From Flammulina velutipes (Eukaryota > Basidiomycota > Agaricomycetes > Agaricales > Physalacriaceae), in NCBI GenBank assembly GCA_011800155.1, contig CM022375.1, forward strand, positions 496,001 through 560,000: a stretch of 64,000 nt of DNA. The letters are read 5' to 3'. The position numbers and the translations under genes were made by a program. Below, piece by piece: positions 16,056 to 49,072 of this stretch (its first letter is position 1; the number at the start of each line of letters is the position of its first letter). A model generated the notes under the pieces. The model was not told where the DNA came from. It did not search any database and was given only the letters and a program-made list of their open reading frames with translations.

Positions 16056-16278
16056 GGCGCCACACTCCTTTGGTCCGGCAATCAATGCGCGCCTCTCCCG
16101 CTCAGCGCGGTTGCCATATGGGGGACATCCCCATATTTAGTAGGGTCGGCGGACCCTGAAGCGAAACCGAATTCTCACTTTCACTTGCCGAATCTGGACT
16201 TGAGTTCGAGTTTGAGGCACCCAATGTGAGTTTCTTCACTATCAAGACGAGTTTTATTTTTGTCCTACAAGGACACCC
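16056..16278 (-). repeat. Inverted repeat arm, right
   Basis: Inverted partner of 14,609-14,851, about 85-90 percent identical by eye. It runs from ggcgccacactcctttggtc to ctacaaggacaccc. No matching direct duplication was found outside the two arms. Confidence 0.75.
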
Positions 16279-28720: not shown

Positions 28721-28730
28721 CGCCACGTGG

Positions 28731-29956
28731 GTGGCGTCATTCCGTATTTCTTACCACCAAGTCAACATGATGTCCTCTTGTTCGTATTTGGTTCACTCAA
28801 TATCCAAAGGTGCACCGTGTTTCTTTTCATCTTCGCTCATATGTTCTATAGCTGATGGCATTTCTGTTACTATCAATCTCGCTACGTACTCTTGTTGTCT
28901 TCGCATACTTCAATTGATGTGCTAAGCCTTGCAAATCTCACATGCATTGCTGTGTTTCCCATGCCGTGCTGTCAGCCGCCTCGTGTTCGCTCTGCTCTTC
29001 CTTGACAACTACCATGTCTTCAGCAAGCAAGCCTTCATTTCGATCGAAAACCTCCAGACTTTTCAAACGTGTCTTCCACCCATTGCGAAATTCTTTTTGA
29101 TTGGGCACTGCTTCCACGCCGACAACGAACCTCTGCCCGACAATGAAAACATCGCAGGACCGCAGGGCGGTTCTCTTCCAGCCCCGGACGTCTTAGCCCT
29201 TCCCCAATCCCTGGACGGTCAACCAGCAACGTCCAGAACGAAGGTAAACAAATTCGCCTGACGACATCTTTCTCAGGGCGCTAATCTACTTCATATGACG
29301 CGATTCTACCACCGTCTCGGGGCATCTTGACCCTCTGCCAATTACTGGACCGTCAATAAGCGACATCCAAGGTCAGCAAACTCGTTTCGCAAGGCATCTA
29401 TCAGCGTGTTAATATAATTTCTAGGACAAGACTCAAATACGTTCCAATCTGAGGCCGCCAATGGTAAGACCATTCGCAATACCGACGGCTGCAATCCTAA
29501 TCTACAACCAAGTCGCTCCCGATAACGTTCAGCAGGCTACGTCTCAGACGCCAGAGGGTTCCAGCACCGTTCAAGGTAGGACATTACCTTTAAATCGATA
29601 TCAGTCTGCTAATACACTCAACAGGACAGGAATCGACCATCGTCCCGGCCTTGCGCCGATCCCGTCAACTAGCAACCTCCAGACCGAAGGTAAGGAAACT
29701 CGCTTCGTAACATTTTTATCAGGGCGCTAATCTACTTTGTAGGACAAATTGCAGCTACAGCCTCATCGGAGGCCGTCAATCGTACGACCAGCCGCAATAC
29801 CGATGATACGATCTTAATCTACAAACCAGCTGCTCCCGATCTTGTTCATCCTTCTCCCCTGGCGCCGGAAGGTTCCAATACCGTTCAAGGTAGGATATCG
29901 CGCTCCATTCTGGATAACATGTTGAATTCACAAGCAAGAACCTCTGACTTTGCACG
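28731..29956 (+). pseudogene. Gene fragment built of duplicated exon-intron cassettes, cut by the transposon
   Basis: Two exons of nearly the same sequence occur 318 bp apart: 29,425-29,575 and 29,743-29,889. Both start after ...tag with GACAA and end GGTTCCA(G/A)(C/T)ACCGTTCAAG before gtagg. The exon between them (29,625-29,689) resembles the end of an earlier one near 29,160-29,240. They encode low-complexity Pro/Ser/Thr/Gln-rich text without a domain. The last donor (gtaggata, 29,890) faces the transposon end, so the downstream part of this gene has been separated or lost. Function unknown. Confidence 0.45.
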
Positions 29957-30315
29957 TACCATGTCAGGACAAATCGAGGTGGCCACGTCCGTCCGGACGG
30001 CCCCCGTCCTGACGTGTCCGGACGCCAACCCATTGTTTAATTGACTTCAATGTAGACGTAGCAGTAGAAATTCAATGCAACTTTATATTTGATATCTAAT
30101 GGGAACAAATTATAACTAAGATGACGTCCGGACACCTCTACGTCCAGACGTCAAGACATGCAGCAATAGAACACGTCAAGACATATGCCACTCATCAGCA
30201 TGACGACGTCTGGACGCCCGCCACTCCAGACGTCCGGACATGCTACAATGAGGACGCGTCAAGACACGGTCAATCCTAATTGCTGTCAAGACCCGTCACG
30301 ACGTCATAACGTCCA
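29957..30315 (+). repeat. KDZ left terminal inverted repeat with subterminal motifs
   Basis: Pairs with the reverse complement of 46,345-46,698. Conserved blocks include cgaggtggccacgtccgtcc, ccaacccattgtttaatt and gggaacaaattataactaag. It holds about a dozen copies of an 8-bp near-palindrome gtcNNgac (gtccggac, gtccagac, gtctggac, gtcaagac, gtcaggac), likely transposase-binding sites. Confidence 0.88.
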
Positions 30316-30654
30316 GACACGTCCAGAAGAGAGCGGGACGCCCGTGCATGAATGGATCACGAGTAAGTATTTATGGCCTGCGCCACTGACTGGCCAAACA
30401 CCCTTGCTCTGTTCCGATCTGTGCACCCTTACCAGTGTCTGAGTTCCTAGTCTCCAGACGAGTGATGGGCAGCATGAGAGGTGATTGGGACGCCACCTGA
30501 ATGTAGTGCTGGCGGGGAAGGTCGTGGTTGAAGGGAAAGGGAAAGGAAATCACGTGATAGCAGTGCTTTGCCTTTGAGGGGCCTCAAAGATCACACTCCG
30601 AGTAAACCGGACAGACAATGACCATAAGACAACGTAGCCTTACTACAATTGTAA
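30316..30654. other. Between left end and transposase stop
   Basis: No gene. Probably the 3' untranslated and terminator region of the transposase gene. No clear AATAAA signal was identified. Confidence 0.4.
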
Positions 30655-33600
30655 CTAATTTACTTCTTTGTCAATCTCATGTCCGCCGTGAAATGACTGC
30701 ATGATATCCCTTTCCAGCTGCGCCCTCTGCTCCTCTGTAGGGCTATCCGCCGCCTCAGCTGCCCAATCCAACACACATATTGGTCGTTTCCGCTCTAGAT
30801 ATGCTCCAAGGCTCTCTGTCTCCCGTGGCCATTCCCCACCACAAGAGGCAAAGGTTTCGCGAGCCCTCTGCGCCATTGTACTGAACATTGATGCCTTTTG
30901 CTTGGCGTACGCCACATAGCCTGATTTATCTCCTGAGGTAACCGATAACTTCAACGGGGTATCCCGCGGGATCGTGGATGCCATAGATGTCCAGTTGTCG
31001 CGCATTTTCTCGCATGCACGAACGTAGCAACGCGACTCTTGTTCTAAGATTTCCACTTCCTCGATTGCTCGATACATCTCTGCGCGCGCCCTGAACCATC
31101 GTACCCTTTTAACTGTTTACGAATGTCAGCTGAAGTTGACGTTCAAATCGTGTGTTTGACTGACCTTCAGTTACGAATTCGTTTTTCTGCTCATCCGCCA
31201 AATCTTTCAACGCGCCATATGTCCATATCCAGCTGTCTGTTTTGGAGCTATCGCCCAGGCTGAGGAATGTCGAAGCGTTCTTTGCCTGCAAGTCCTCCGG
31301 AGCCAACTTCGGATACACGACATCTTCTGAGTTGTCGGCGCGCCCCTGTAGAAGCATAAGACATCGACGAGCATGCTTATACGCAGACGCATGGGTATTC
31401 TTCTTGGCCACAACAGTGTTGATGTATTTCATTGAGCGAAGGTTCAACACCACACCCTGTGCGTTGCGGTTCTTGTTGTCGCGAAGAACCATTCCGTGGA
31501 TGATGACAATACAAAGCAACGCCACTGCTTCGTTTGCTTGCCCATCGCGTAAGCGCCTTTCAATTTCCCCGCAAGTCTTCAACCGAAGAGCCATCGTGAA
31601 CGGGTCTGGCGCTTCGCCCGCTGTCGTAGGGATCAACTTGAATTTGTATTTGCGCTGATACGAGGGCTTCATGAGGTCGGATGGCAACCATAGAACCTCC
31701 TTCTCGATGTCGTTGGTGTTTTCCGCCACATGAGTTGCCAGATCTTCGAGGGCAGGAATGTCGGCCAACTGAAGTTTGCGAAAGCGTATAAAGTCATTCC
31801 TAAGTGCCTGGCGCGCGGTCTCGATTTCTGGGGAGTGTCGATTCCCTCGCTTTTGTCGAGAAATTTGATGTCTGGGAACGTTGTAGATTACGCCAAAGAA
31901 TCAAAGCCATTGACTCACTGTTTCTCCTGGAGTTCGATGCCTAAATTGATCCACTCCAACGTTGGATTAGTACGTTTCCTCCACTGAGCCATTTTGCTGT
32001 TGTTCGAGGCAAGCTCCTCGGCTTCCAAGCTCCTGACGACCTCTTCTCGGCTGGGCACTATTGTGGCGTCAGTCTAAGAACTCAACCGCTCAGAAAGGGT
32101 TCACGTTTTTTCAAGGATAATTTATACGGGCTCGTCCACTTGCTCAGCGGTGTCTGATCTTCTGCACCCTCCAAAGACTTCTGCAACATTACCCAGTGGA
32201 CATCTTCCATTTTACTCCACTTTTCCACGCACACCTTGCCCATCGTTCGAGACGAATCCAGGAAAAAGTCGACCTTCTCTTGCTGCTGCTCCTGGGCCTT
32301 CAAAAGGTGTTTCTTTAGGTACCGTGCTAAGGGAGGTATCATGTTAGAACACCCCATCCGCGATAGAGCAAACCGACTTACCCTGTCCCTCTACTTTCCG
32401 CCAATTCCAAAAGATATGAAAGTCATTGAGCTTGTCATGGCGATGGCCATGATTCATCTGTCGCGTACTGCCACCCGATTGCTTCGTTTCCGCCCATGAA
32501 GGCTCTATTCCTTCTCCGTGGGTACGACCCGCTCCAGGGAAGAAGTTTAAAGCATAGGCGTATTGACAATCGACGATGTGCGCGTTGAGATGCATTTTCG
32601 GAATGAGCCAATAGACAAAGTCGACAGCGTCGGCGAATGGCCTCATTTCCTCCACATCTTCCGCCTTGAGCCTGAATCGCTTCGCAAAGTTGACCTGGAA
32701 CTGACAAGCAATGTCGTATGTGATGAGTACGCGGCGGAAATATTTTGCTGCACCCAACGACGATTTGACGGAAAGTGTCGCACCCAGTGCCCGTGCCACT
32801 GCGTAGTCTGCCAGGGCAAATCTGTAACGGGTGTCAGAGATGTCGAAGCAGGCGATAGTAACATTTCCCCTTACCTTTCCCCTTTAAATAAATCAACCAT
32901 CGATAGAAAAAGACTGTGGCGTCCACATTCGACCCCAATTACTCCCGTTATCACACACCCTTTGAACTTGAGTTTATTCTGCATCTCAACCGCATTGAAC
33001 GACGAGCACGATGATTTCTTTTGCGTTGGTCAGACCACTGCTAGGTATCAAATAATGACACGTACCTCTTCGGCTGTCTTGCCGTACTTGTTAATGTACG
33101 GTTGATAGTCGTCGTCCTTCGGGAAGAAGCCTTGGCCTGGTAGTAGAGAGACATCGTCCGGATCATCTACTTTAGCAAAACGCGAAAGCCCAAAGTGTCC
33201 ATCGAGCTGCTTAGTGGCTTGGACGACATGGCTGAAAAGATATCAGACCAGAAATGTGCAAAACTATACCACTCCTACATGAACTTTTCGGGAACACCGT
33301 CTATCTCCTCATCAGGCATATTGAATCCTCGTTGCGGGCATGCAAAGCATGGAACAACCACACTTTGGGGGCGACGGTAGGGGAAGATATCATCGATACC
33401 ATGTAATAGTCCTGCCCGTTTTTTTGCGAGAGCTGCGATCCAGATTCTATGCGCTCGAGCGAATTGCCTATAGATGTCCTATTCCACGAAATTAGAGAAG
33501 GCGCAATATGTTACGAAGTGCCACTCACCTTAGCGTCGTCAGGAAACCCGTTGTCAGTCTTTCTCTCCAATGCTGCGATGTAGTCGTAAGCTGATTTCTT

Positions 33601-34554
33601 GGATGTCAAAGTATGCAAATGGAAGTCCTTCATCACCTCCCAAGTGAAGCCTGTCTTCGGCCTCGCCACCGACGATGGTAGGATACTCGACTGCAAGCAC
33701 ATCTGGAAATGGTCTAGAGAGTTTCCATGCCAGCATTTGCACCAAAAGACTTGGAGCTCGTGGATACCATTGGTGTGCGTGAGGGTAAAGTTGCTTGTCC
33801 CTTCCCGACCACCCTCCCCCTCCCCCTCCATTTCCCCTTCCTTGTCGTTGCAGGTGGACTGGTACCCCACACAGGAAGCGAACTCGCTCGTTCGCGGGTG
33901 TCCGATGGTAACGATACGCCCTAGCTTGCACTGATCTTTCTTCTCTAGGAAGTCGCCGTTCCAAACGTATGCCCAGTGGAATTGTTGAGCACGGTGAGCC
34001 TCGAGAAAACACGGCTCGCAGCATGGCACCATGTAGTCGCATTCGTAACAGATGCACGATCGTATGCCATCCTCGCATTGGCATGGCTCTCCCAAAGTAT
34101 TATCGCTTTCGTGGACAAGCATCCAGTCGACGATGACATCCAGGCGACGTTCCAGTTCCAAGATCTTCATATGTGCTCCCTTCGACGTATGAGCATTATT
34201 TCTCCGAGTGAGCGTAGTATTTACCTGTGGCTTTGGGGCATTTACAATTTCAGGAGGCCCGGTGTCCTCGTCAACAGTCTCTGGAAACTGTGAAGTGGCC
34301 TCCGAATCGATTCTCTGGCGCTTCGCTTCGTGGTGCTTCATGGCGGCAAGGAAAGGCGACTGGTATTTGGATGGCGCAGCGGCTGTGGGTTGGATAGAAG
34401 GGTATTGATGGGTTACCACATTGGCTTCCTGTGGCGGGTCTTTCCTCTTGCGACTGCTGGCGTCGAAAATACCTTTCAATGATGCTGGTGGGGCCATAGC
34501 TAATAGTGTTAGTAGCCCCGGATCGTCTTGTATATAAGACGTCGTATTAGACAA
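30655..34554 (-). CDS. KDZ transposase with CxC2 domain
   Basis: Exons join in phase through eight introns (first one 33,479-33,528) into roughly 1,000 residues with no stop. Exon 1 has a disordered basic start (SLKGIFDASSRKRKDPP), a helix, then the CxC2 zinc cluster: PCQCEDGIRSCICYECDYMV, CCEPCFLEAH, FHWAYVWNGDF, LGRIVTIGH. Later exons give QLDGHFGLSR, MQNKLKFKGCVITGVIGVE, LITYDIACQFQVNFAKRFRL, KMHLNAHIVDCQYAYALNFF and RTHGEGIEPSWAE. These match the RNase H-like core of KDZ transposases, including the aspartates in LDGHF and YDIACQ and the acidic GEGIE motif. The C-terminal third is helical (REEVVRSLEAEELASNN, SLSWIW-like SDSWIWTYG). It should cut and join the element ends in the nucleus. 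Start at 34,554 chosen as the first ATG; a second Met follows 19 residues on. Confidence 0.92.
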
Positions 34555-34690
34555 TAAAGCTCATATTTCATTTGTAAGCAAGGGAGACAACAATAGAGAC
34601 GAGGAAATACGGATACGGATGGTGATCGTGATAAATGCATATGTAGCGAGGGATACTATAAATAAAATACACTGAGAGGAAAAAAAATAT

Positions 34691-35937
34691 CTAGACGACG
34701 ACAATGGCCTTGGAGGCAGAGCTGCCATCACCACCGAGGAATACAATATCGGATTCGTCGTCGGATATATCTAGCACTTCGTCGTCGGATATATCTAGCA
34801 CTTCGTCGTCGGATATATCTAGCACTTCGTCCTCGGATATATCTAACGCTTCGATAGGATCAGAGGTTGGTGGTGGGGTAAGCAGATATCTGGTAGCTGA
34901 GTGCGATGGGGATGGCGACCGAGCCCGCTTTCTGCCAGAGGGACCAGCGGTTGCGTTGATGGCAGCTGGAAAGCCCTATCAGTCATAGAAATTGTAGAAG
35001 AAAGTGGACTTACCAGGCTTGTCGACGGTACTATGAGGTCCAGCCACTGGGTAAAACAGCGGCGACAAGAGGGGAAAAGGAGCTGCGACTGGGACTGGCG
35101 AAGTCATTGGTCAATATGTCTTCAAGGGCATGTCGACATACCAGTCGCATCCACGCGTAGATGTTTCTTGGGCAAGTTGGTAGCTGCAGCGATCATTAGC
35201 AGCAAGTCGTGATTCTCCCCCAACAAAGACTGACCGTTCGCAGATCTCTTGCGCTTCTTCGACAGTGAACCGTCATTGTAGGCCTCGTCCAATAGCTGAG
35301 CCAGTGTCTTCTCGGGGGGTTCTGCTGCTGTCAGGCGAACGACGTCCGGCAGTCTGGTTGCATCCGTCCACTGTCTCTGGATCTTCAAGGGCGCCTGGAA
35401 GCCATTGTATCGCTCATAGAGGAGCATGACATCAGGAAGGGCATCGGCCCACGCCTGCTCCCATGCTGCGACTGAACGCTCGTAGACAGCCTTTTTCTTG
35501 CGAAACGCTGGCCAGTCGCCTCCTACTCCATCGACGTTCATGACAGCGACTTGTCCATTCCACTTTATCGTAGCATGCCTAGCCACTTTGAACGCGCGGA
35601 CGACGCCATCGACTAGCTCGCTGGCTGCAATATCGGGGGGTTCGTAGAGGACGACGCGATCACATTTATTTTGGATGCACTGCGGGTCTTGATTGAGCGA
35701 GCTCGGGGAAAGAAGGTGGAATGTGTATACCTGAATCGTCTGCATTCCCGCCTTGTCTCTCTGTTGCCCGCCTGTCACTGTGTGCAAGACATGTCTGCCC
35801 AATGCCGACCAAGGGCATGACTTATCAAAAGTTTTGGCGTTGGGGAATCGATAGGGCGAAAGAACACGGGCGATGTAGGTGTAGTCGTAGCTCTTCGAGT
35901 AGGGGTTGCGAGCGGGTGTGTAGAAGGGAGGCGCCAT
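34691..35937 (-). CDS. KDZ cargo protein with four tandem SUMO-interacting-like motifs
   Basis: First exon MAPPFYTPARNPYSKSYDYT to KKRKRSANG (a nuclear localisation signal), then short introns near 35,230-35,180 and 35,140-35,090 and one at ~35,015, ending SKAIVVV. The middle has a predicted globular part (DRVVLYEPPDIAASELVDGV, NGFQAPLKIQRQW) not matching a known family. The C-terminal tail is Pro/Ser-rich and then carries four units LDISEDEV/LDISDDEV, each a hydrophobic core followed by Ser-Asp-Asp-Glu, the pattern of a SUMO-interacting motif, and a final DIVFLGG. Start at 35,937 rather than 36,216 because a TATA-like box lies just upstream and the earlier 93 residues look non-coding. Likely a nuclear protein that contacts sumoylated partners; function inferred only from motifs. 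Confidence 0.7.
34755..34850 (-). repeat. Four 24-bp units encoding the SIM-like repeats
   Basis: Unit tcgtcgtcggatatatctag + cact, four copies in tandem, the last diverged (tcctcgg, aacgct). On the reverse strand each encodes eight residues VLDISDDE. Confidence 0.9.
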
Positions 35938-35970
35938 TGGATAGGATGACCCCCTCCCGCTGGAGGATCC

Positions 35971-35980
35971 TCTTTTATAG
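35971..35980 (-). promoter_or_regulatory. TATA-like box of the SIM-repeat gene
   Basis: ctataaaaga on the reverse strand, 34-43 bp before the chosen ATG at 35,937. The spacing to the start codon is short, so the leader would be only a few bases long or the box may be chance. Confidence 0.3.
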
Positions 35981-36313
35981 TCGGAGGATACATCCTGTTT
36001 GAACGTCAATTGTTGCTCATTGGAATCAATGCGAGTGCTTACCGTGTGGATAGTAAACTTAGCAGACGAGGAATGACCAGATATTTGACCGTAATTGCGG
36101 TATCTCGCTGATTGAACATGATGGTGCAAAAAGAAATCAATAACGTGGCAAAGAGCAATCACGTGGCTGGAAGCGTCAGCCGAATCTTGCAAATCCGAGA
36201 TGCCCGGACTCCTCATTTTAGAGATGCATTATAGAAATATCGTGACCAGGATATACATACGATGGAGAGTCATCAAAGGCTGTATATAGGCTAGGCATAG
36301 GTAGTCTTCTAGT

Positions 36314-37027
36314 CTAATAAATACCATAAAAATCTCCGTATATATCATGCTGATATCTACCCCAATCTTCAACGTCTGTGATACGTAGCTCATCGATGGC
36401 TAGTCCCAGCCACCCATCTCCCCCGGGGAGTTCGAATGGTACGTTATAAAAGCACTTCTCCCACCGACAATCCTCCTCACTTTCACTCGAAGGAACAAAC
36501 CGCCACAACGTAGCGCCCGCGGTCACAGGTAGAGCCAGCAGCTTCGAACGATTGTCTAGCAGGCACAGTTTCCCATCGGAAGTCAGGTCGAGATCGATCT
36601 CCACTGGATTCATTGGCTCCTGAGCGTGTTCAGTATCGAGCAAGAGCGACACATTAGAAAAACTTACATAGCACAAAAAGACACATTTGTGAGAAGCACG
36701 AATGTGCCTCTCTTCACCACGGGGTACAGCCCTAGAAAAGCTGGGTCGAGCAGGGGTTTCTTCAGCGACAGTGGCGTGAAACTGTCCGCAAACTGAGCGT
36801 TTCCATCGCCCCCAACGAACACCGAAGCGACCTTCGTCTGTCGCAAGGACTAGAGTAGAGCCTCTTCCAAGGGGAAGTGCGAAGGGTTGTCCATACCTAA
36901 TGCACTCTATCCATCGTTCTTCGTCGGGAAGGAAACGCCAGAGCGTAGCGCCAGCGGACAACGGAGTATCGCGCAGCGTTTGACAATTCTCGGAAAGGTT
37001 GACAGTCGCTTCGTCTATATCCGACAT
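36314..37027 (-). CDS. KDZ cargo protein with an internally duplicated domain
   Basis: Starts MSDIDEATVNLSENC. Two halves repeat the same layout: LSAGATLWRFLPDEERWIEC ... YGQPFALPLGRGSTLVLATD, and TAGATLWRFVPSSE ... CFYNVPFELPGGDGWLGLAI. A likely intron (gtaagttttt...gctcag, about 36,615-36,665) lies between them and keeps the frame either way or shortens the linker. The protein is small, acidic and beta-rich. The repeated core GATLWRF-x-P is not one I recognise. Lies between the SIM gene and the next reverse gene, so it could share their regulation. Function unknown. Confidence 0.6.
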   Translation of the reverse strand: MSDIDEATVNLSENCQTLRDTPLSAGATLWRFLPDEERWIECIRYGQPFALPLGRGSTLVLATDEGRFGVRWGRWKRSVCGQFHATVAEETPARPSFSRAVPRGEERHIRASHKCVFLCYVSFSNVSLLLDTEHAQEPMNPVEIDLDLTSDGKLCLLDNRSKLLALPVTAGATLWRFVPSSESEEDCRWEKCFYNVPFELPGGDGWLGLAIDELRITDVEDWGRYQHDIYGDFYGIY

Positions 37028-37342
37028 CTTTAAGGTGAGTTGAATGGGTTCGTTATTGGGCTGTGAACAGGTTAATTGTGCGTGACACTACTGACGAGGG
37101 ACTCACCATGCCACAGAAAACCAAAGTATGCACATTCCACATCAAAGGCGAAAGAGGTTGCCAATCCGACATCTCGTACCAACGGAAGGGGAAAGCAAGG
37201 AAGCTAAAGGACTGGGTATTGGTTCAAGGTACACCTTTATATCGACAAGCTAACTACAATAGGTCTACAATCAATATAACTATCTGTATCTACTACTTCT
37301 GACTGTTTTCTCGTTCGTCGATAACAGCGCCTGCCGGACTGA

Positions 37343-38286
37343 CTACCAGACGACCTGATAGCAGAAGATCAGTGGTGTTGTGCTGCTGCTGAGGAAGACT
37401 ATACCTGAACAATTTCCTCGGCAGCCAACATCGTAACTCATTGCCACGGCTTTTGGTCTAGTCGAGGTCTCGAAGTTAGTGTATGCTGAGTCGTGCGCTG
37501 GGGTAATCATAGGATCGATTTTGGCCGATACGAGGTCTTCAAGAGGAGGCATGTCCTGGTCAACCTCCAAAGTTTCATCTTCGACAAGGTTCGTGCTAGA
37601 GGAAGGTCAAAACAATGGTGCAGCAATCGGTACAAGCACGCACCCAAGACTAATTGTCCTGTCGCGAGCATTGGCCAACCCGCTCCACGCGTCCTCGACG
37701 CCTTCCCCGTTGTGAGAGCGGGGAAAGTCAGGATCCGAACATGACAATGCATGGCTATTGTATGAGCACTGCCGGCTGAGTGCGTACGAGAGCGCCGAAG
37801 GCGAGTGCTCTCTGGCTTTGCCAAATATATCACTGATTGCCTGACAATGAGTTAAGTGGAATGGATACAGGATTATGCACGCACCAGGATTTGTCGTTGT
37901 CGGCGGGCATTGTCGAGTTTCACGAATTGCGAGTGTCCTTGATTCAAATAATAAATGGTAAGATCCAGCCGAACAATAAAAACGTACGGCAGGAGAGAAC
38001 AATACGAGCCCGCCAGGACATTGCCCTCGTGAAATGGCCCCGAACAATAGCGCACTGAGTCGTCGTGATTTTGTTCGTGATTGTCAGAAGGGAAATAGGA
38101 GGCGTCGATTCTGAAAGGGAAATACTGCCCCAAAACGGCAAGTCCGAGCAGCTCGGAGCAGCCAGATCGAGGGGCTTCAGGTACTTGCGGGAACTGGTTC
38201 CCACGATTTTTCTTTTTGTCTTCAGTCTTCCATCTCGGTAAGTCTTTCGTAGACAAAGGGCCAGTTAGCGCGAGAATAAACATCAT
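37343..38286 (-). CDS. KDZ cargo protein, unknown
   Basis: Starts MMFILALTGPLSTKDLPRWK, with PFRIDASYFPSDNHEQNHDD in the first exon; several introns follow (gtacgttttt... near 38,000-37,950; gtgcgtgctt... near 37,665-37,620). A later exon has FPRSHNGEGVEDAWSGLAN, which recalls the GEGVE-x-W motif of KDZ transposases but alone is weak evidence, and the last exons give VEDETLEVDQDMPPLEDLVS. Phase of the second exon is uncertain, so the full protein cannot be given. Its start codon lies 75 bp from that of the divergent Spt5-like gene. Confidence 0.45.
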
Positions 38287-38361
38287 TTCAAATTCCCCGC
38301 ACCCCTAAGGCTCGAGACTGCATCCTTGGTATACAGTTGCGCTGAGAATTTGACACAAGTT
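38287..38361. promoter_or_regulatory. Short divergent promoter region
   Basis: Only 75 bp separate the start codons of the reverse unknown gene (38,286) and the forward Spt5-like gene (38,362). Both must be driven from this stretch or from within each other's 5' exon. It splits the cargo into a reverse and a forward half. Confidence 0.5.
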
Positions 38362-41028
38362 ATGTTCAAGCATCCAGTAAGTGCATGAATGAGGGTCGCG
38401 AAAGAATGAGTCTCAGTACGTTCTCTTCAGCGAGTCTTATCGTTCCTGGACCTGGAGGCGACGCGCCATGATGCCGAGAGTGACGAAGAAGGAGACCAGA
38501 CTGAGGAGGATGGTACGTGGATGAGGCTCGACGTGATCTTACCCCAACATACATCCAGATTTCCTTGACGACGACGCTACCACCGATACCGACAGTCTCC
38601 TCCAGGATAGCACTATTCCACAGAGCCCTAGCATCCCGGATGACTTTGAGCAATGGACCAATGAATTACTGCAGCGCCACGCGCCCTTCGCCATTTCAGC
38701 GTCTACTTCTCAGTCCTCATCCCAAGTTGCTGAAGCCACTGCTACATATGCCAACAACATCAACGTCAATCTTCCTATTTGGCGAATTCAGTGTCTGGTA
38801 CGTCGCGGTATTGCCGATCATTCTCATCCTAACTTCATCCAGCGAGGCTGGGAGGACATATTGTGCAACAAGATCAAAGCATGGTTCCCCTCCGCAAGCC
38901 AGGAAAATACGGTATTCACGCTTTCTAGGGTGCCGGGCTGGGTATACTGGTCGTGCACACAAGCCTCAATGTCTCGATACCGCGTCGAACCCTTTGACGC
39001 AAAGTGTATAATCAGGAAAGGCAACGAGCGCGTCATGTACGAAGTTCCGGAGCAAGAGAAGACTTCTGTCTTGTCGTGGTTGCAAGCCGAGGGACCACTC
39101 TGGGTGAAGGGAAAGTGGGTACGAATCTCTAAAGGCAAATTTCGCGACGTAGTGGGTGTAGTCGCCATGCCGTCTAACGTCTATACATCCGTTCTCGTGG
39201 TACCATTGACTGATTGGACCGCGCCAAATATGTCAGTGAATAATTCGATCTGCAGGCGGACATGCTCATAGTTCGTTCAGCCATTCACATTCCAAGAAGA
39301 GGACACGAGAACAACCATGGGTCGAACCCCGTCTCTTTGATCACTCTGAGGCCCAAGCGAGGGAGAGGATAGGATCGGAACGCCTCATAGACCGTGTTCG
39401 AGACGGAGAGACTCATCTGCCTTCAGACGTTGTCGTTATTGACGGAGGAAATGAGAAGTTCAAGTATAGAGGGGTAACTTATTGGCATGGTCTGGCTGTC
39501 ATCCGAGTTCCTTCTAATTCCCTCTCCGGCGTTGTAGGCGCCATCGATTCTCGCACAGCGACGCTCTTCAAGGACAGCCACCATCCTCTAGTCAATGCTC
39601 AGACTATGCCCCGCTGTATCGGCTGGGTATTCGACTTCGGGGAGCACGTTAAATCCAAGGCGTCCGGCATCGAGGCCATCGTTAACGAAATCCATGATCG
39701 CGGTCTTCTGGCGACAACGACGACTGATAGCAAGGTCGTGACCATCGCTTGGCACGATGTTGTCAAAGTATTTTACCTGGGAGATTTCGTTCGAATCCTC
39801 GACGGCTCGTCAGTGGGGAAGGAATACATAGGAGAGCATGTCCGAGTTCTGGAGGGGTCGTCATTGGGGAAGGACGGATGGGTGCATCACATACAGAACG
39901 AGGATGCACACATTCTTCGGTTAGTGAGAGGATCGGATGCAATGCAGACTATAGTTCGCATGGAGGTAAGCTTCGTGCTTTTGTTGTCAGCCTATCTCAC
40001 GTATTGTATGCAGCACTATGTCAGTCATGTCAATTTCTTGACCTTGACCGCAAATACAGATATCTCTGGGGACACTCAACCGTCTGAAGTTGTTTGGAAG
40101 AGGGCGATGGCCACAGGTCCCACTCCTTGGCTCAACGTCGCCGCCACGATCATCCAACCAGGTCACCCGCTCCGAACTTATCCTGCTGTCGTAAAGGATG
40201 TCTTGATAAACCAAGATACCCCGAGCGGCCTGAAAGTCCTTTTGGAAATCACAACTTACAATGCGGCCATCCCTCGTCGAACACAGACGATCGACTTTGA
40301 CTGTGTGGTCGATCCAGAGTAGTTATCTTTCTTTTGAAACTCGGAAATCCCTCTGATACATAGGCAGGACTCAGTGGCATCTTCAGCTTCGTCATCCACT
40401 TCGCGCCAGCCAACGCGCATACTTTCCACGATCGGACTACACCTGGGATAAAATTGCTCTTCCAATCCCGCCCCCTAAGCCTCTGGCCATCCTCGATCGC
40501 CCATCGACACCTGTTCCTGATAGAACAGAATCCTCCACGCCTGCTTGGGATCCACGCATTCACGAACCCCCTTCACCTCTGCCATGGGTTTTGGATAAGG
40601 CTTTTGTTGGTTGTTCTCTGCGCCTGAGCAACGGAAGCGCCAAAAAGGCTATCGTAGGCATACCGACCATAGTTGGAGAGGCAATCATCCTGTACACGGT
40701 CTACAGGAACAAGCTGAAGGAAACGGAAGCATCTGGGATGGTGGCTAGGCATCCTGGCGCACGCTGGATGGGTCCCCTAATGATCATTGCGGGTTCTGAT
40801 AAGGGAAAGTACGTTCGTCCAGTACGACAAAGGACGGTCAACAATGTCGTACAATGGACGGTACGTGTCTGTGATCGTAAAGAGGCTGGGCCCGATGCTT
40901 TCCTAGACGAGGAATTAGATATACCAAGTAGCTGGCTGTGTGAAGTGCACGAGGATGATGAAGGGAGAGCGCGTAACGACGCGCAGGCACGTCAGTTGAA
41001 AGAGCCAGCAGCCGGGCACGGGTTTTAG
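38362..41028 (+). CDS. Spt5-like protein with NGN and KOW features, KDZ cargo
   Basis: A mini-exon MFKHP joins through a canonical gtaagt...cttcag intron to RVLSFLDLEATRHDAESDEE and an acidic stretch (DDDFLDDDATTDTDSLLQDS), as in the N-terminus of Spt5 proteins. Then comes an NGN-like part (LPIWRIQCL, then after an intron WEDILCNKIKAWFP and FTLSRVPGWVYWSCTQASM). KOW-like modules follow (PLWVKGKWVRISKGKFRDVV; FYLGDFVRILDGSSVGKEYI; EHVRVLEGSSLGKDGWVHHI), and another near the end (ARWMGPLMIIAGSDKGKYVR). Exons join in phase over about five introns. There is no clear C-terminal repeat region. Spt5 family proteins bind RNA polymerase II and control elongation. As a transposon gene it could act on transcription or silencing of the element; this is inference. 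Confidence 0.75.
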
Positions 41029-41101
41029 TAGCAGTACCATTGTATTCCACTCACATGATTTTGACTCCAATTGAACTTCGCCTTGACAAAAAGAATGTAC
41101 A

Positions 41102-41635
41102 ATGTTGGATTCGTCCTCTAACCCATACCACCTTCTCCTTAACCCGCACTCAAAGGATCGTTCTCCCAGCAGGATGCGCTTAAACTCCAATCGACTTGTA
41201 CAGGATCCTTTTCAACAAAGGATCACCAAGCACTTCAAACCTACAATCAAAGAACGTCGTCAGCCGCGAGCGGGTAAGAGGACTGTTATTCTAATCTTCT
41301 ATCGAGCAGTATGTCGTGATACAAGTCTTTCTTTCTCTTTGAATGATGTCACATTAGGGGGGACGCAAAATTACTGTCGTACTTCGAAATGTGGCGTCAA
41401 GGATTCGCCTGTCCGATCACGCGTGGGCCCTTGCTTCATCGGGAGTGGGTCAACGTCCCCAATTCCGCATCCTCAATATTTCGGAGAATTCTTTCTGGTG
41501 GTCAGGACTCGGGTGGCGTTCCTTTTTTGATGTTCCCAACGATGCTCATATTCCGGTGTTCATTCACGCCACAAACGAATCCCTGCCGTCCTCGTGGGTC
41601 GGAGATATTAGCTCTTACATTACATCTTTGTAGTG
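41102..41635 (+). CDS. Small KDZ cargo protein
   Basis: Two exons: MLDSSSNPYHLLLNPHSKDR ... ITKHFKPTIKERRQPRAG, then after an in-phase intron (gtaaga...cattag, about 41,275-41,358) GRKITVVLRNVASRIRLSDH and WSGLGWRSFFDVPNDAHIPV, ending SSYITSL. About 150 residues, basic at the start, aromatic-rich later. It begins 73 bp after the stop of the Spt5-like gene. No family recognised. Confidence 0.5.
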
Positions 41636-41897
41636 CATTTGCATAGTGATATTTTGTACCTCGCTAATAGAAATGAATGTATCCGATGAACTCGGAATGT
41701 CAAGATCAGAGGCGGACAGAATACGGGCCGAGCGCTTTCCCACGGCCCTTTTTCTGCTTCGAGACCATCATGGTCAAAGCTTGGTCAAAGCTTGGTCAAA
41801 GCTCAAGGACCTGTCAATTCGCCCATCGTAACAATCAATCGCGAAGGATGGGTTTAAAAGGGTGAGTGGGAGACTCTGGTGGCGTCCATCCACAACC

Positions 41898-43092
41898 ATG
41901 CCTCCCTCATCGTCTAATATCAAGACAGACACACTGTTTATTACTCTTCCTGCCAAGGTCACGATTGAGCAGAAGTTTCTGGCGACCATCTGCGTTCTAC
42001 TCGACATATCACAGGAGGAATACTATGCAGCGATGAATTGTGACAAGCCCCAGCGCTATCACGAACACAACATCGAGCAGGCCGGGCTAACCATTGGCGA
42101 TCATACTATTATAGTGCGCCCATTTTCCTTGCTACCCTGCCTTTAACTGACTCAATTATCCAGTGCTCAGCCCCTCGTAATCAGATTAACGTCGAGCCGT
42201 GCAAACCGCGCAAGCTAGTCGCAAGGCTCACTCCGGAGCAACGTGCTTTGCTAGAGCAGAAGCTACAGGAATACGTAGCGCTGGTGGACTTGGTCATGGA
42301 AAACGGCGCATCCTTGGCTGCCACTGACAGGGATTATACCGCTTTGAGTCGCGCCACACGGAAACTGGATTTCGATTTGACACTGGCGCAGACATTATCA
42401 TGCAAGCGGCAAACCATTTTACTTTCGAGTACCACCTTGGCTGACTACATTCACAGCTCCCCCTCACACGATTCGTGCACTAGGAGAAAGTCTAGCAGCG
42501 AAGAACGCAGAATTGAATTCGACCTACCAGCAGGTAGCACGACTCACCGAACGACGCAAGGAATGGCTCAAAGGTATATTTTCTTCATTCGTCAGGGGCT
42601 GTAAGGGCTGACTAGCCTATAGCCATGAAGGACATCGTGAAGGAGCTGAAGTTGGGGAGACCGGACCTCAAGGCAAGGCAGGATCCATCGGGTGCGTATA
42701 TCGCATCTGACGTTTATGCGCTTCTGACTTTTAGAACCAGGTGGTGCCAACCAAGTAGTCATCGCCACTGGAAACGTTTCCAGCTTCCGCGCTGAAGGTG
42801 TGTCTACAATGTCGTATTGGTTGTCAACCGTTCTGATCGACGCATAGGAAAACGAGTCGAATTGAACACCGGCCCAAGTTCTAGGAGCGCTACTTCTTGT
42901 TCTTCTACTTCGGCGCCATCTACGAAGCCCCGCGAGCGCTCCCCTTCGGTAGTTGTACTGCCTGAGATCGAGGCTAGGAAAGTCGAGGCCCGGGCATCGG
43001 CAAAGCGCGCTGCCAAGCTGAAGAGAGAGGCGGAGAGTATTACGGTTCAACAACCAGTTCAGAAGAAGAGGCGCCAGCACCGCCCGCGGTAA
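41898..43092 (+). CDS. KDZ cargo protein with coiled coil and basic tail
   Basis: Start MPPSSSNIKTDTLFITLPAK, an N-terminal globular part (FLATICVLLDISQEEYYAAM), then after an in-phase intron at about 42,115-42,163 a helical part (LTPEQRALLEQKLQEYVALV), then TPPHTIRALGESLAAKNAEL and ARLTERRKEWLKAMKDIVKE, a heptad-rich coiled coil. Several short introns follow. The end is strongly basic (AKRAAKLKREAESI, QKKRRQHRPR), suggesting nuclear localisation or nucleic-acid contact. Function unknown. Confidence 0.6.
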
Positions 43093-43648
43093 CTTCATCG
43101 TATGTGTAGCGATGGACTTGGTATACTGTAGCTTAATGTAGTGAAATTTGACTGTCATTGGCCTCATATCTTCTTTCGAAATGAGTAACTGGTCATTACC
43201 TTTTACTGACTGATGAGTTCTCCTGACGCAAGTACGCATGTTCTGAAAAGTGGCGTACATATGTCCGGGCATCTCGGAATGAAGAAATTGACAGGGCACT
43301 TATCCTAAGCGTAAGCCGTTCCCACGCTCCCTTTTATGATTTGTCCTACCACGATATACGAGGCACCAACGCTAAACAACGATCTGGTGAGTCTGCGAGA
43401 GCACGAAGAACACTGATTCGGATGGCATGTTCGAAATGCTGAAGCAATTTCATTTTTGGCCACACAGGCACACAGATTGATCGAGGTTGACAATATCAGC
43501 AACAAAAGACCTCGTACAATCCATGAAATGGGCCATACGCCGGTACTCAGAACAAAGACGCTCTAGTCAAAGCAGAATCAAAGCCTTCAATGTTCATTGT
43601 TAAAACCGCGCGGGAGGTGGCGCTCTGGCAAGTTCTTCCCCGCTATCA
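43093..43648. promoter_or_regulatory. Intergenic region upstream of the HMG-like gene
   Basis: About 550 bp without a supported gene. It should hold the 3' end of the coiled-coil gene and the promoter of the HMG-like gene. No specific box was identified. Confidence 0.35.
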
Positions 43649-45960
43649 ATGCCTTCCAAAGAAGATTCACTGAAATGGTCTCCCGTTCAGAAGGTGTGGA
43701 TCGATGCTTACAAGGAGAATAACATGCTGCCTTTGCTAGCTGACTGGCGCTCCTGGAAGCCAGGCAACGCTGCACCGGTGACGACGCTGCCGGACGAATG
43801 GGGAGCAAGGATTGCCTGGCCAGCATTCGAGAAGCAGTTCACCATTGAAAAGGTATATTCGAGGTGGGATAAATAAACGAAGACCTGACCTAATGTTTAG
43901 GACACCAAATATCCTCTGTGGAAGAACGTAAGGCATCGCTGTTCGCAATTGACGTCCTGTCCTCATACTTCACAGAAATTTGCGACGGAACTTCGCCACT
44001 TCAAGGCCAACATCGTTGCACAGGGAGCGAAGCACGTCCTGAAGCTCATCGAGCTGGGAAACATACCACTGCCTGGAACCAACATTGCGCCGATGGTAGC
44101 GCAGCAGACGACACCCGGCAAGAACTCGACCGAACATCTGTTCTCGTCTCCTGTTACTGGTCGCCACCTCTTTGAAGCAGAGACGAGGACCTCCCTCAGC
44201 GACGAACTTGGTCGCGAACGTGCAGAGGGTAGCATTCCTAGTAGTCAACACCCTGGTTTGCTGAAGCAGAAGGTGGCCGCCATGTGGAAGTCGCTCTCAG
44301 CTGGGGAGCAGGCAGATTGGGACCGGAAGGCGACAGAAATCAATGACAGTCCTCACAATATCTACCGGTAAGTCTCAAGACTCCTCGCATTCATGTCGAT
44401 ATTGACGTATTTCCATTCATTCTTAGTACACAGAAGTTGTTGGTACCTGCACTTCGTCAAGTCCTGTACACCTTGACTTCTGAGGGCCGTCATAGCGCAG
44501 GTACTGCTGCTTTTACTCTGTTTTACGGATATCGAGACGAGAATCGGATGGTCCAAGGCGGAAGGTAAGTGCACATATCTGCAGTTTTATTTCCCTTGCT
44601 GATTACTCTTTCAGTATTCATTTGAACCAAGCCAACGCAGCTTCTAGTTGGGGAGAGGTAGGCTCCAATGAATGCGAGTCCTGGACTCGATACTGTCTAG
44701 AGCATCTACATGGTAAGTAATCATCTCCAAGATCAGCGCCGTCATTGAACTCACCGCTGCACGTATAGCACCGCCGGACGAGACATCCGAAGTGAAGCCT
44801 CTCAAATGTGTCGTGTCGCCGGGTGGGGAGGTTACTTTTCCGACGCTTGATGTTGACCAAGTCACGCCGAAGGACCTTCGCTATCACGTCGAACAATTCC
44901 TTCAGCTGGATTGGCGTACGTAGATGTTATTATTATTGATCTCACATTGACCACTATTACAGAGTCTGTCCGCCAAACCGATATCCCTTTCATCGACGTC
45001 GTAGAGAGCCCCGACTCCTATCTAGCAGACGACATCGTGGAAGACTTTGCGCCCTGGCTGAAACGCTGGTCCAGCTCTGTCACTATGTACAACGCTGCCG
45101 AATTCCTACAATCGCACAAGTTCAAGCACTTGTTCAAGGAACCACCGCCGCTGCCGCCTGTAACGCCGAAGTCATCGAAGAAGAAAGCAAAAAGGTCCGA
45201 CGATGTTTTGAAGCACGCTAAAGGGGACACATCTCCTTCAAAGAGCAGTGACACGACAGTATCTCCTGCGGGTTCAGCGAAGAGCAGTCGACCTGAGGAA
45301 GGGCTGGGTATCTCTTTCAATGCATTTCCCAGTGATGATGAAACAGACCGGTTGGAGGCAGAGTATCCCGAATTTGCCGATCCCAAGGACTCAACCTCGA
45401 TGACGGTAGAAGGACATGAGGGGGAAACGCAGGTGAAGAAAAAGACCGAGCTGACCAAGTACGCTGTCCACCATGAGTTCGTTGATCAGCTCGCTGATGT
45501 GTGTTTCATAGGACGAAGCAGAAGAAAGTCATTAGGGACGATGACGTAGTCGAGAATGAGGACGATGATCCACCTAGGTGTGTTTTACTTTATCTATCAT
45601 CACTAACACTAACATCGTCTGTTCAGGGAGAAGCCGAAGACGAGCGCCAAAAAGCGATCAGGAAAGGGAGCGGGCAAGAAGTAAGTGCTACCTTCGGAAT
45701 GGAGAAAATGACTGACATGTGGAATTAGGCGCCCAGCTGATCCCTCTCCCGAAGACGATGTCGACCAACCGAAGCGAAAGAAGGCAAGATCGGGCGTCAA
45801 ACCCAAGACGAAAGTGTTGGATCAAGAACCACCAACGCCACCACCAGTTCGCGGGTACGGTTATGTACGTGCGGAGGCCCCCCAGCCAACTCCCCTCCTT
45901 GATCAGGAGGTTATCATCAAGGGGCCGAGGCAGACCCGCTCGGGGAGAGCGCGCAAGTGA
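43649..45960 (+). CDS. HMG-like DNA-binding protein, KDZ cargo
   Basis: Starts MPSKEDSLKWSPVQKVWIDA; about nine short introns, checked in phase at several joints. The first part has aromatic helices (LADWRSWKPGNAAP, DEWGARIAWPAFEKQFTIEK). The second contains RHLFEAETRTSLSDELGRER followed by LLKQKVAAMWKSLSAGEQAD and WDRKATEIND, the layout of an HMG-box-like domain (long helix, then W-x-x-L-S-x-x-E-x-x-x-W-x-x-K-A). Next comes ALRQVLYTLTSEGRHSAGTA with FYGYRDENRM, a region seen in related basidiomycete proteins. The tail is Ser/Lys/Glu-rich with basic clusters (KSSKKKAKR, KRSGKGAGKK, QPKRKKARSG) and ends QTRSGRARK. Probably nuclear; bends or packages DNA by analogy. Confidence 0.65.
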
Positions 45961-46344
45961 TCATTTATATCTTTTACAATAAGTAAATAAAGCGCTTTGT
46001 TCGGTCATCTCGGAAAGACCGATTTCAATAGCTTGAAATGAATGTTTGTTTTGGTCATGTGATTATTTGACTCTTGTCTTCAAACCACCATCACTCGATG
46101 CCAGAGCCACTGGTCAGCATTACCGTCGAGCTCCATTCACTGAATACGCCGGGTCCGTCGCGTGTAGTGTGGAATCGGAGACGGAGCTTCTTATCACAGG
46201 TGGCGTACTGACTTTGCTCATTGGTTTCCGCGGTCTGACGCGTTCTATTTTTGTGGTCTTTACATATCTCCCACTTGAGCATTTTGACGCGTCTTGACAC
46301 GCTGTACTTCGTGTCGTCTTGACATATCTCCCGCACCGAGTATT
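45961..46344. other. Between HMG-like gene and right end
   Basis: No gene. Probable 3' untranslated region, then the first gtcttgac-type motifs of the terminal region from about 46,285. Confidence 0.4.
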
Positions 46345-46698
46345 CATACGCGTCTGGATGTCCTGACGGGTCCTGACAGCCACAAGGATGTACCACGTCT
46401 TGACGCGTCCTCATTGTAGTACGTCCAGACGTCTGGACTGGCGGGCGTCCAGACGCAGCACTCTAATTGTCTGCCTTTGTCTTGTTGGGTTCTTACTACT
46501 TGATGTCCTGACGTCTAGGTGTCCAGACGTCATCTTAGTTATAATTTGTTCCCAGTAGATACCAAATATAGTGTTGCATTGAATTTCTACTGCTACGTCT
46601 ACATTGAAGTTAATTAAACAATGGGTTGGCGTCCGGACACGGTGAGACGTCGGGACGTCCGGACGGACGTGGCCACCTCGATTTGTCCTGACATGGTA
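46345..46698 (-). repeat. KDZ right terminal inverted repeat
   Basis: Inverted partner of 29,957-30,315. It keeps ctccagac/gtctggac, aatgaggacgcgtcaagac and the terminal cgatttgtcctgacatggta. The arms are about 85-90 percent identical by eye, with small indels near the end (tcccgacgtctcaccg versus gcccccgtcctgac). Confidence 0.88.
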
Positions 46699-49072
46699 GA
46701 TGAATTTTCTGAGAACCTAACGAAGCACTGCCAGGAGCGGCGTCTTCAAAGTTCCGTGGGAACTTACTGCCACTCGCTCTGGCATTCTTCTTGAAGGGAG
46801 CATTGGATAGTGGACATTCGTTGGATGTTGCGTCTTCCTGGCTGCCATGGCATCTTGGACTTATAACCGTTTTCTAGGACACTTATATGCGATAGTGATT
46901 CCTTTCGTAGCGACGATCTCGCTTGTCGTCCTGTTGTTTGGCATATGGAGCGCTGCTGGCGGACCTAGAGGACACATAGGGACAAATAAAAGCCAGTCGA
47001 AAGAGCGAACCTGGCTCGTTTGCGGAATTCCGTCTATGTTACAGGAAAAGTGCTCTCACTGCAATCTGTACTTGCGCACTCTTCTGATCGTCCGGTCTTG
47101 TCTGAACAACATCCAGAAAATTCCCGCTGCCATAGCTGTTTGTTGCCCAAAGCCAACTAGTAGTCACTGTTCCTCCCGGGACACTCGTCGTGCTCCAGGC
47201 TTCGAGTTTTGGCATGGGACCGCGTGGGGCCGTGGAGGGATGACCACACGGCGCTGCTGAGCTCGATGTGCGTCTCCGCGAAGATTTTTCCAAGATTTAC
47301 TTACTCATATCACACCTAGTCTTTTTATATGATTCCGTAGCGCTGCAGGAGACACGACCTCGCCTTCCATCGTGACGACGACAACGTACGCGCTCTCCTT
47401 GCTCCAGTCTGTTTCCACCCCTGTTTGTGCAAGACATGCCCGCGCCTCTTGTACCGAATGAGCAATCTTCTTACCTACCAGTATCCGCAATCCTACACTT
47501 GGCTGAATCCCTATTGCCCTAAGAAAATCGACTCCCATTTCGGCCCTTCCGAAGATTCTTCCAAGATTTACATGCTCATATCGCAGCCAGACTTTCTGTC
47601 TGAGTGTGTATCGCTGCAGGACAAACGACATCGACTTTCCTCACAACGACATACGCGCTCTTTTTAGTCCATTCTGCCTCCATCCCTGTTCGTACAAATC
47701 ATGCTCATCCATGCCTTCTTGGACCGAAGGAACAATCTACCCTGCCTGGTCGCTACCAGCATCCACCATCCCATACTTGGCCAAATCCCTACTGCCCGCA
47801 GAAAGCCAATTTTTATCTCGGTACTCCATCCTTCGGAGTGGACGTCGGCGTCACGTCGCGTTCCAAACTACGACTTTCGAACTGATGCTGAAGGAACGAT
47901 TACCCACTACCACGCTCGAAGCAACGGAGGGCCTTGGCCATATTGTCGTCATTCGTGAAGGTTATATCGCCCCATTCCCGACACGACGTACTTCCAGAAG
48001 ACGCATCATCTCCCAACTTGGCTGAGATGGAATTTCCGCGACGGAGGGAAAAGATACACTTAGTCGCAGCCACCCTCCCATCTCTAGAAGGCATGACCGC
48101 CAGGCTTCTGGACCCTGCTGTTGTCCGTACAAAGCGCCACAATTTATGTTCTGCTCATACAAATCCATGTCTAGACGTTTGCTCAGAATACCGAAACACT
48201 CATCCCTTTCATCGACCAAATGTGCACAGAACTGGAGGAGAATGGTCAAACTTTGAACCAGATCTGTTACCCGGAATCGCAACGACCTACGCAAGACGAA
48301 TGCATGCTAGACGCATACAGAACGGTGAGAAGTAGTGTTTGATTAGAGCAAGTACTAATCACTGACAGACATGATGATAGTGGTTAAATGAAAAGATCTA
48401 CTTCTACATCCGATAGACCATGAAGGCGCGCGCCACAGAGCCAGATGTTATCACAGCTTTCGAGAAGCTGAAAAGTGTGTGATTTTCATACTGGAAAACA
48501 GTACATCGTTACAGTCCAATTTAGAACACATCAATCGTTTCGACAAATTCGTCGCCAATGCTGTCCAGTCGGATGACTGGTACTGAGTGAACAGCCAGCG
48601 CCTCTTCTCTGTAAGGCTACTTGTATGTCTATGTAACAATACAATATGATCTAAAGACTGAAATGCCTATGGGAAAAAATGTGAGATTCCTCAACGAGAT
48701 GACCTTGACCCCGTGGTTCCGCTTCCTGGTAGACCCACTTCAGAAAGTGGCAACGCGACGATAAATGATTTTGCCATCCTTTCCATCATCATCCAAACCT
48801 TGTCTGTTTCCAAGCTCGGCGAACCCAACCATCAGTTGGCTGTCCTACAGATGACAGAAATTTTGCAGGCAAATGCTCAAGCGCTGGGTTGTAAACCCAG
48901 TTCGATACGGTCTTCTGCGTCTGCCCGTCCTCTGGGCGAAGATGTCCTGAAAGCTCCGACAACCGAAATGGCTTGTCTGACCCGCGACCATGAAGACACT
49001 CCGTTATTCTGCTGCACGAGTAGTGGACGAGGAACCGTTTCTACAAACGAAGGAGACACCTAGAAAAAAGTG
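46699..49072. other. Relics and a ~270-bp tandem duplication; no intact gene recognised
   Basis: A forward frame at 46,847-47,260 has one membrane-like helix (VIPFVATISLVVLLFGIW). From about 47,290 a ~270-bp unit occurs twice (caagatttac at 47,291 and 47,562; gcgctct at 47,390 and 47,655). On the reverse strand the first unit encodes VGKKIAHSVQEARACLAQTG. Forward blocks near 48,180-48,300 (NTETLIPFIDQMCTELEEN) and 48,435-48,580 look like helical adaptor-domain exons of the kind found at the N-terminus of agaricomycete STAND proteins, but stops break them. Confidence 0.4.

Follow-up and report, generated by a model that had tools for sequence, protein, structure and literature searches.

The 64-kb stretch of DNA analysed here (positions 496,001 to 560,000 of contig CM022375.1 of Flammulina velutipes, hereafter the window; C8:496001-560000 in our contig numbering) contains E1, a KDZ (Kyakuja-Dileera-Zisupton) element of 16,768 bp at positions 29944-46711. 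E1 is very probably a cut-and-paste DNA transposon that has remained intact, and its conserved accessory genes probably serve the element. It carries a transposase gene and seven further genes, B to H, and since much the same set recurs in a second element on the same contig, E2, the extra genes look like working parts and not like chance passengers. KDZ elements with extra genes are known already; what is new here is the second element with its counterparts of the E1 genes, and the literature covered by our search describes none with an Spt5-like gene. The features of E1 are as follows (positions are those of the window; aa, amino acids).

29937-29943, no strand: left target-site duplication AGAACCT, the 7-mer being identical at both ends of E1
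29944-30305, plus strand: left end; inverted repeat from about 29957, seven GTCYRGAC sites in the first 450 bp
30655-34497, minus strand: KDZ transposase, 1137 aa, 9 exons; CxC2 zinc cluster and RNase H-like core (D400, D529, E596)
34691-36216, minus strand: gene B, 457 aa; tandem VLDISDDE repeats near the C-terminus (about 34750-34849)
36314-37172, minus strand: gene C, 254 aa; two copies of a GATLWRF-type domain, no Pfam match, counterpart in E2
37293-37910, minus strand: gene D, 159 aa; no Pfam match, counterpart in E2
38362-41028, plus strand: gene E, 822 aa; Spt5-like with a KOW motif
41102-41633, plus strand: gene F, 160 aa (136 aa from the second ATG); small conserved protein
41898-43092, plus strand: gene G, 315 aa; no Pfam match (early model), one GC-AG intron
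43649-45960, plus strand: gene H, 633 aa; divergent HMG-box-like protein with basic C-terminus, counterpart in E2
46357-46711, minus strand: right end; inverted repeat to about 46698, six GTCYRGAC sites in the last 450 bp
46712-46718, no strand: right target-site duplication AGAACCT, identical to the left one

Ends, transposase and short copies of E1

The limits of E1 were set by comparison with other copies. A first-pass annotation, made from the sequence alone, had placed a complete element at 29957-46698; one complete KDZ element does lie there, but that interval is its inverted part only. The inverted arms (29942-30305 and 46357-46713) comprise about 340 bp, far above chance and in good agreement with the terminal inverted repeats (TIRs) of about 350 bp described at first. 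They pair in three blocks, namely 29942-30003 with 46652-46713 (87% identity), 30013-30155 with 46499-46641 (92%) and 30207-30305 with 46357-46455 (86%). The termini read CTG...CTG, and the target-site duplication (TSD) measures 7 bp in E1 and in the four short copies described below and 8 bp in E2, all within the KDZ range of 4-8 bp. Positions 29000-47700 gave no match in Rfam.

All 13 occurrences of the palindrome GTCYRGAC in E1 fall into the terminal 450 bp on either side, none into the interior, and three more are found in the other 47 kb of the window. This distribution makes GTCYRGAC a candidate transposase-binding site, which would be family-specific at most, since E2 has one match in 16.9 kb and no cluster.

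The eight spliced gene models each run from an ATG to a single stop, as the first-pass annotation had also found, and contain 34 introns of 40-77 nt, of which 33 are GT-AG and one is GC-AG; 11,835 of the 16,768 bases of E1 are coding. These structures are models, not transcripts, those of the transposase and of B, D, F and G having been refined with the help of homologs or conserved motifs. The transposase, B, C and D read leftwards, and E, F, G and H rightwards. A Pfam scan of the eight proteins at E <= 1, using early models of F and G, gave matches for only two of the seven non-transposase proteins, E (KOW) and H (HMG_box), and no match to the TET/JBP family in any of the eight.

The final transposase model matches PF18758 with E 1.1e-49 (169.5 bits, cut-off 26.6) and the CxC2 zinc-chelating cluster PF18803 with E 3.7e-21. 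It was aligned with related sequences to a total of 79, four of which come from the same genome and 75 from the 78 relatives found (P0076-P0078 were left out). In this alignment D400 is kept in 74 of 79 sequences, D529 in 76 and E596 in all 79; we take these to be the catalytic residues. All 78 relatives bear names of Agaricomycetes, the closest being CxC2-KDZ proteins of Marasmius, Paramarasmius and Armillaria with 57-55% identity within residues 200-700, headed by Marasmius crinis-equi with 57%. A quick tree of the 79 sequences places the transposases of E1 and E2 as sisters (SH-like approximate likelihood-ratio support, SH-aLRT, 96; branches 0.60 and 0.55) within a clade that holds five Marasmius/Paramarasmius sequences. 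The positions of the transposases of two further loci, on contigs C9 and C12 (see below), are unsure because of their long branches.

When the genome (38.1 Mb, 23 contigs) was searched for copies with the left end, 11 matches were obtained: two at E1 itself, eight at the termini of four copies of about 1.5 kb, and one at an isolated site. The 7-bp duplications of the short copies comprise three different 7-mers, CTACCCT for L002, GGTGTTC for L003 and AGAGGGT for both L004 and L005, and because short internally deleted copies bear their own duplications, E1-type ends have been mobilised. In L002 the left 771 bp correspond to positions 1-761 of E1 (93.0%) and the right 689 bp to positions 16088-16768 (93.6%), so that it looks like an internal deletion of an E1-type element. 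In L003-L005 the left part is 92.9-93.0% identical to E1 and the right part only about 75%, which suggests that they arose by recombination or descend from a related family whose right end is not the same. L004 and L005 are of equal length and lie near both ends of contig C1 (C1:100870-102372 and C1:4459724-4461226); since they share a duplication there, a single insertion may have been copied afterwards, which in turn suggests a duplicated chromosome-end segment. The lone end-like match is at C8:681795-682141 (67%).

Given that short copies with E1 ends exist, the genes of E1 might have been enclosed by chance between two separate short insertions with the same ends. This appears highly improbable, as a single 7-bp duplication flanks the unit, the transposase lies inside it and its 3' end is kept in L002, and E2 repeats most of the arrangement with a duplication of its own. 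The same 7-bp duplication at both ends of the whole unit rules out two unrelated insertions as the source of the terminal repeats, a possibility raised at the outset, and in L002 both ends are found joined, with its own CTACCCT.

Recurrence of the gene set in E2 and at other KDZ loci

Protein searches of the same genome led to C8:1264-1284 kb, where E2 lies at about C8:1264956-1281836 (16,881 bp between the duplications), with inverted ends of 47 bp (83%) and the 8-bp duplication CTCGGCAC. Its genes are arranged as H, G, C and D leftwards, followed by E, F, a B-like gene and the transposase rightwards. Turned round, E2 reads transposase, B, F-E-D-C, G, H; the block C-D-E-F is thus inverted relative to E1 and the outer genes stand in the same order.

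Similarities were scored by local alignment as z-scores from 200 shuffles (40 for the transposase), with G in its early model. Between E1 and E2 the scores are 395 for E, 156 for C, 101 for G, 89 for F, 60 for H and 12 for D, none of which was reached by any of the 200 shuffles; the transposase counterpart in E2 was found by tblastn. Identity in the matched stretches amounts to 43-73% for the transposase, 46-61% for E, 52-73% for C and 46-52% for G, and is low for H (34-37%) and D (about 30%); F shows about 53% by tblastn with the early model and 68% in a four-way alignment. The similarity of B is weak (z 3.4, reached by 2 of 200 shuffles), and the B-like gene of E2 is probably its counterpart, judging from the same place, the same MAP start and the same KAIV ending. 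The GC-AG intron of G is possible at the same place in E2.

In all eight genes synonymous differences between E1 and E2 exceed nonsynonymous ones. The ratio of nonsynonymous to synonymous change per site (dN/dS) is 0.12 for E, 0.18 for G (early model), 0.32 for B (19 codons) and 0.47 for D (21 codons), and the corresponding ratio of proportions (pN/pS), given where synonymous sites are saturated, is 0.25 for F, 0.27 for C, 0.32 for the transposase and 0.49 for H (78 codons). All of these values come only from alignment columns within windows of 35% identity or more, where synonymous change is at or near saturation, and they are biased low. Such ratios fit constraint on the proteins, and measure it poorly.

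Parts of the set are found at two further loci. At C9:126-146 kb an inverted repeat pair with an outer span of 15.5 kb (86%) surrounds a KDZ transposase, F, G and E. At C12:1968-1988 kb a KDZ transposase is accompanied by a gene with repeats of the SUMO-interacting motif (SIM) type, recognised by eye, and by E, F and an HMG-like gene; inverted ends were looked for at this locus and none were found. Compared with E1, the transposases score z 104 (C9) and 79 (C12), reached by none of 40 shuffles, E 41 and 18, F 99 and 21, and G 18.5 in C9. The H proteins of E1 and C12 score z 5.3 (0 of 200 shuffles), and so do B of E1 and the SIM-repeat gene of C12 (z 5.3, 0 of 200), but both of the latter contain acidic repeats. 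In each of the four loci the last exon of F is 276 nt long, and the four-way alignment of F shows 32 columns without any variation. In summary, the transposase, E and F are common to all four loci and G to three, the rest belonging clearly to E1 and E2 only, with H probably also in C12. At the C9 locus (L057/L058) a second, 102-bp inverted pair of 99% identity (joined positions 7831-7932 and 13928-14029) is placed around F, G and E.

For the distribution of the accessory genes over the genome, PF18758 gave 166 matches, the best 150 of which define 89 KDZ loci, so that there are at least 89. Gene F occurs at eight places (E <= 0.1), with a distance to the closest listed KDZ locus of 3.0-12.1 kb in seven cases and of 17.4 kb in the eighth. 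As only about 5.3% of the genome lies within 13 kb of a listed KDZ locus, seven of eight correspond to a binomial probability of 9e-9; with the four starting loci removed, three of four places lie within this distance (6e-4). Of the 20 places with Spt5-like genes, eight have a listed KDZ locus at no more than 15 kb, a count that includes the four starting loci, and a ninth has one at 15.5 kb. The accessory genes are enriched near KDZ genes, and not exclusive to them, since Spt5-like and H-like genes are also found at places without a listed KDZ match nearby. At one such place, C8:330-344 kb, which holds no KDZ gene, the Spt5-like gene is the only one that can be named.

This distribution bears on the explanation by chance capture, in which the accessory genes come from the host and are either passengers without a role or cargo serving the host. 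KDZ elements with accessory genes are already known, according to the available part of PMC12477816; 12 of the 20 Spt5-like places lie more than 15 kb from any listed KDZ locus, an H-like place (C1:2432267-2433641, 34%) has no listed KDZ match nearby, and gene B has no other clear copy in the genome (none at E <= 0.001). Cargo genes at sites without a transposase, which the first-pass annotation had named as evidence against an element, were thus found in part, for Spt5-like and H-like genes with respect to the listed KDZ loci, but for F seven of eight places are near KDZ. On the other hand, E2 repeats much of the set (D with about 30% identity, H with 34-37%, most others with 46-73%), synonymous change between the two exceeds nonsynonymous change, E and F are present again at C9 and C12, F clusters within 13 kb of KDZ loci, and the presumed host Spt5 lies elsewhere (C1:2523413). 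The recurrence in E2 and at other KDZ loci rules out chance capture as the whole story, and we consider this explanation unlikely in general.

The Spt5-like gene and the possible role of the module

The protein of gene E alone gives a KOW match over the cut-off (PF00467, 23.8 bits, cut-off 22.3) and matches to two SPT5 KOW models below theirs. A profile built from the four E proteins matched 13 PDB sequences at E <= 1, twelve of which are Spt5 and one a plant protein. The best match was a solved SPT5 (E 2.2e-19), aligned over the NGN-KOW region, and one Spt5 match, at profile positions 144-408, lies outside the acidic N-terminus (E 4.5e-13). The initial reading of this gene as Spt5-like is thereby supported. 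The plant protein is RNA-directed DNA methylation 3 (E 1.5e-4). The Spt5-NGN family of Pfam has no match in the E proteins of E1, E2 and C12, and the C9 protein reaches 23.7 bits (cut-off 22.4). The strongest Spt5-NGN gene of the genome, with 79.7 bits, is located outside E1 at C1:2523413 and is presumably the host Spt5, the only other genome match at E <= 1 being the E gene of C9 with 18.3 bits. Gene E is therefore a divergent Spt5 relative apart from the presumed host Spt5.

Gene H matches HMG_box PF00505 with E 0.022 and 15.6 bits, below the cut-off of 25.4, and the SSRP1 HMG family with E 0.18; the HMG-like protein of C12 reaches 18.3 bits against the same cut-off, and the E2 and C9 proteins give no match. 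The HMG-like gene of the first-pass annotation has thus a weak match in its favour but, the HMG box being below the curated cut-off, may be called HMG-like only. In gene B the VLDISDDE repeats, which we take to be SIM-like, agree with the SIM repeats noted at first. One domain of C, with a predicted local distance difference test score (pLDDT) of 69, gave no PDB match with E <= 0.001; the predicted structure of the last exon of F has a mean pLDDT of 42.5, too low for use, and a profile search with F found two nameless proteins (sources lgn and ena) at E <= 1.

We take it that the accessory module probably serves the element's own expression or transposition in silenced chromatin. In such a scheme the transposase would bind GTCYRGAC at both ends, excise E1 and insert it with a 7-bp stagger, and the short copies would have been moved in trans. 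The Spt5-like protein might help RNA polymerase II through silenced chromatin, or counter silencing, whereas H might bend DNA or chromatin and the SIM-like repeats of B might bind SUMO-marked host factors.

A narrower form of this explanation is that the Spt5-like and SIM-repeat proteins are specific anti-silencing factors comparable to TET/JBP, as opposed to general helpers of transposition. TET/JBP genes in fungal transposons have been proposed to counter methylation (available part of PMC12730594), and the E profile matches RNA-directed DNA methylation 3, although more weakly than SPT5, so that this match may reflect shared NGN/KOW similarity only. In addition, at C3:2262-2283 kb (L068, L065, L067) an Spt5-like gene (2267-2277 kb) lies near a SIM-repeat open reading frame (ORF) and a Tet_JBP-like ORF, the latter with E 0.019 and thus below the cut-off; tblastn with the 78 KDZ proteins (1e-4) gave no KDZ match in this region. 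Within E1 itself, Pfam gave no TET-like family for any of the eight proteins at E <= 1, which speaks against it. We regard it as a serious possibility that falls somewhat short of an even chance.

The more general reading of the module can also be extended, to a KDZ lineage with a private transcription-and-chromatin kit, consisting of an Spt5-type, an HMG-like and a SIM-repeat protein with small partners, in which the element would use its own Spt5 for transcription through silenced chromatin. The kit would have been inherited together in the element and kept by selection across a divergence that saturates synonymous sites. This extension is tentative, and we would sooner doubt it than rely on it. 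If true, the element would have a way past silencing that differs from demethylation, the one proposed for TET-bearing relatives. A recurring set with an Spt5-like protein turns "cargo" into a testable machine, and should this protein aid the escape from silencing, a core elongation factor would have been taken over by transposons, a finding that would bear on the part of Spt5-like proteins in silencing at large. It is also a warning that some of the Spt5-like genes in mushroom genomes may belong to transposons and should not be taken for regulators of the host.

Several observations weigh against an intact element with a conserved module, in addition to the 12 Spt5-like places and the H-like place without a listed KDZ locus and to the low bias of the substitution ratios. 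The genome search found a single full-length copy of the exact E1 family and no empty site: joined flanks were compared with three right-flank paralogs and with the E2 region, and none of the four spans the junction, the paralogs aligning only from 22 bases beyond the E1 duplication. The view of the first-pass annotation that E1 is young and possibly active is in keeping with the intact frames and duplication but less so with one full-length copy and with short copies that are about 93% identical at the left end. No counterparts of C and D turned up beyond E1 and E2. The H proteins of E1 and C9 are not significantly similar (z 1.9, reached by 11 of 200 shuffles), nor do those of E2 resemble H of C9 (z -0.4, 130 of 200) or of C12 (z -0.9, 170 of 200), and H of E2 and of C9 lack a Pfam HMG match at E <= 1. 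B of E2 does not match the SIM-repeat gene of C12 (z -0.1, 108 of 200), and two further C9 genes fail to match B or D (z -0.2 to 1.3). Finally, the single E protein of E1 gave no PDB match at E <= 1, hence no Spt5, and no relative at E <= 0.001 among 7990 protein candidates scored.

With regard to the surroundings of the two elements, the left flank of E1 (window 28582-29933) and the flank beyond the right end of E2 (L056 8363-9586) belong to one sequence family, whose pieces are 73-95% identical (79-80% for the two longest), and both elements lie in or beside it. The window contains 16 stop-to-stop ORFs of at least 220 aa, nine in E1 and seven outside. The statement that nearly all genes outside the element are broken could not be established on this basis, as these outside genes may be spliced. 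Two ORFs at 22250-24412 match Suf (suppressor of forked) and are possibly parts of one spliced host gene, and an ORF at 17506-18714 matches E1-E2 ATPase with 24.0 bits, short of the curated cut-off of 28.1. The G+C content drops to 0.363 at 61001-62000, compared with 0.42-0.545 in the other 1-kb steps.

Comparison with known systems

Starship elements of the Pezizomycotina are, like E1, large fungal elements with cargo genes. They are moved by a tyrosine recombinase, as stated in the available part of PMC12134995, whereas no such family appears among the Pfam matches of the eight E1 proteins. The giant KDZ elements of Ectocarpus and Chlamydomonas resemble E1 in their large size, which reaches about 30 kb, and many of the giant Ectocarpus families also carry extra genes, but the hosts are different; a 31.7-kb KDZ element has moved in Chlamydomonas (both from the available part of PMC12477816).

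KDZ1-3 of Cryptococcus neoformans, elements of 9-11 kb with TIRs of 139-241 bp and TSDs of 4-8 bp, have been shown to transpose and share the KDZ transposase, TIRs and TSDs with E1. They differ in having CxC1 instead of CxC2, and the main text of the paper, as far as available, contains no occurrence of HMG or KOW (PMC12810828). The Kyakuja elements, TET-bearing families of Laccaria and other Agaricomycetes, have a 7-bp target duplication as in E1, but the available part of PMC12730594 describes 5'-CA..TG-3' termini and no TIRs, in contrast to CTG...CTG and TIRs of about 340 bp without a TET/JBP match in E1. E1 can thus not be filed as a Kyakuja, being ruled out by its termini and TIRs. A term search of PMC12730594 returned none of the terms HMG, KOW and Spt5.

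In the parts of the literature that our search covered, no KDZ element is described as carrying an Spt5-like gene, and no paper contains both KDZ and Spt5; Iyer et al. 2014 lies outside this coverage and may show parts of the set. Among the basidiomycete KDZ elements as a whole, E1 is typical in its combination of PF18758 and CxC2, its inverted ends, its short target duplication and the presence of extra genes. The founding KDZ paper is said to report additional proteins as well, including one with a divergent HMG domain. E1 is set apart from the basidiomycete KDZ elements by the absence of a TET/JBP match in Pfam and by its gene set, found again in another element, which includes the Spt5-like gene and four genes (C, D, F and G) that match nothing in Pfam.

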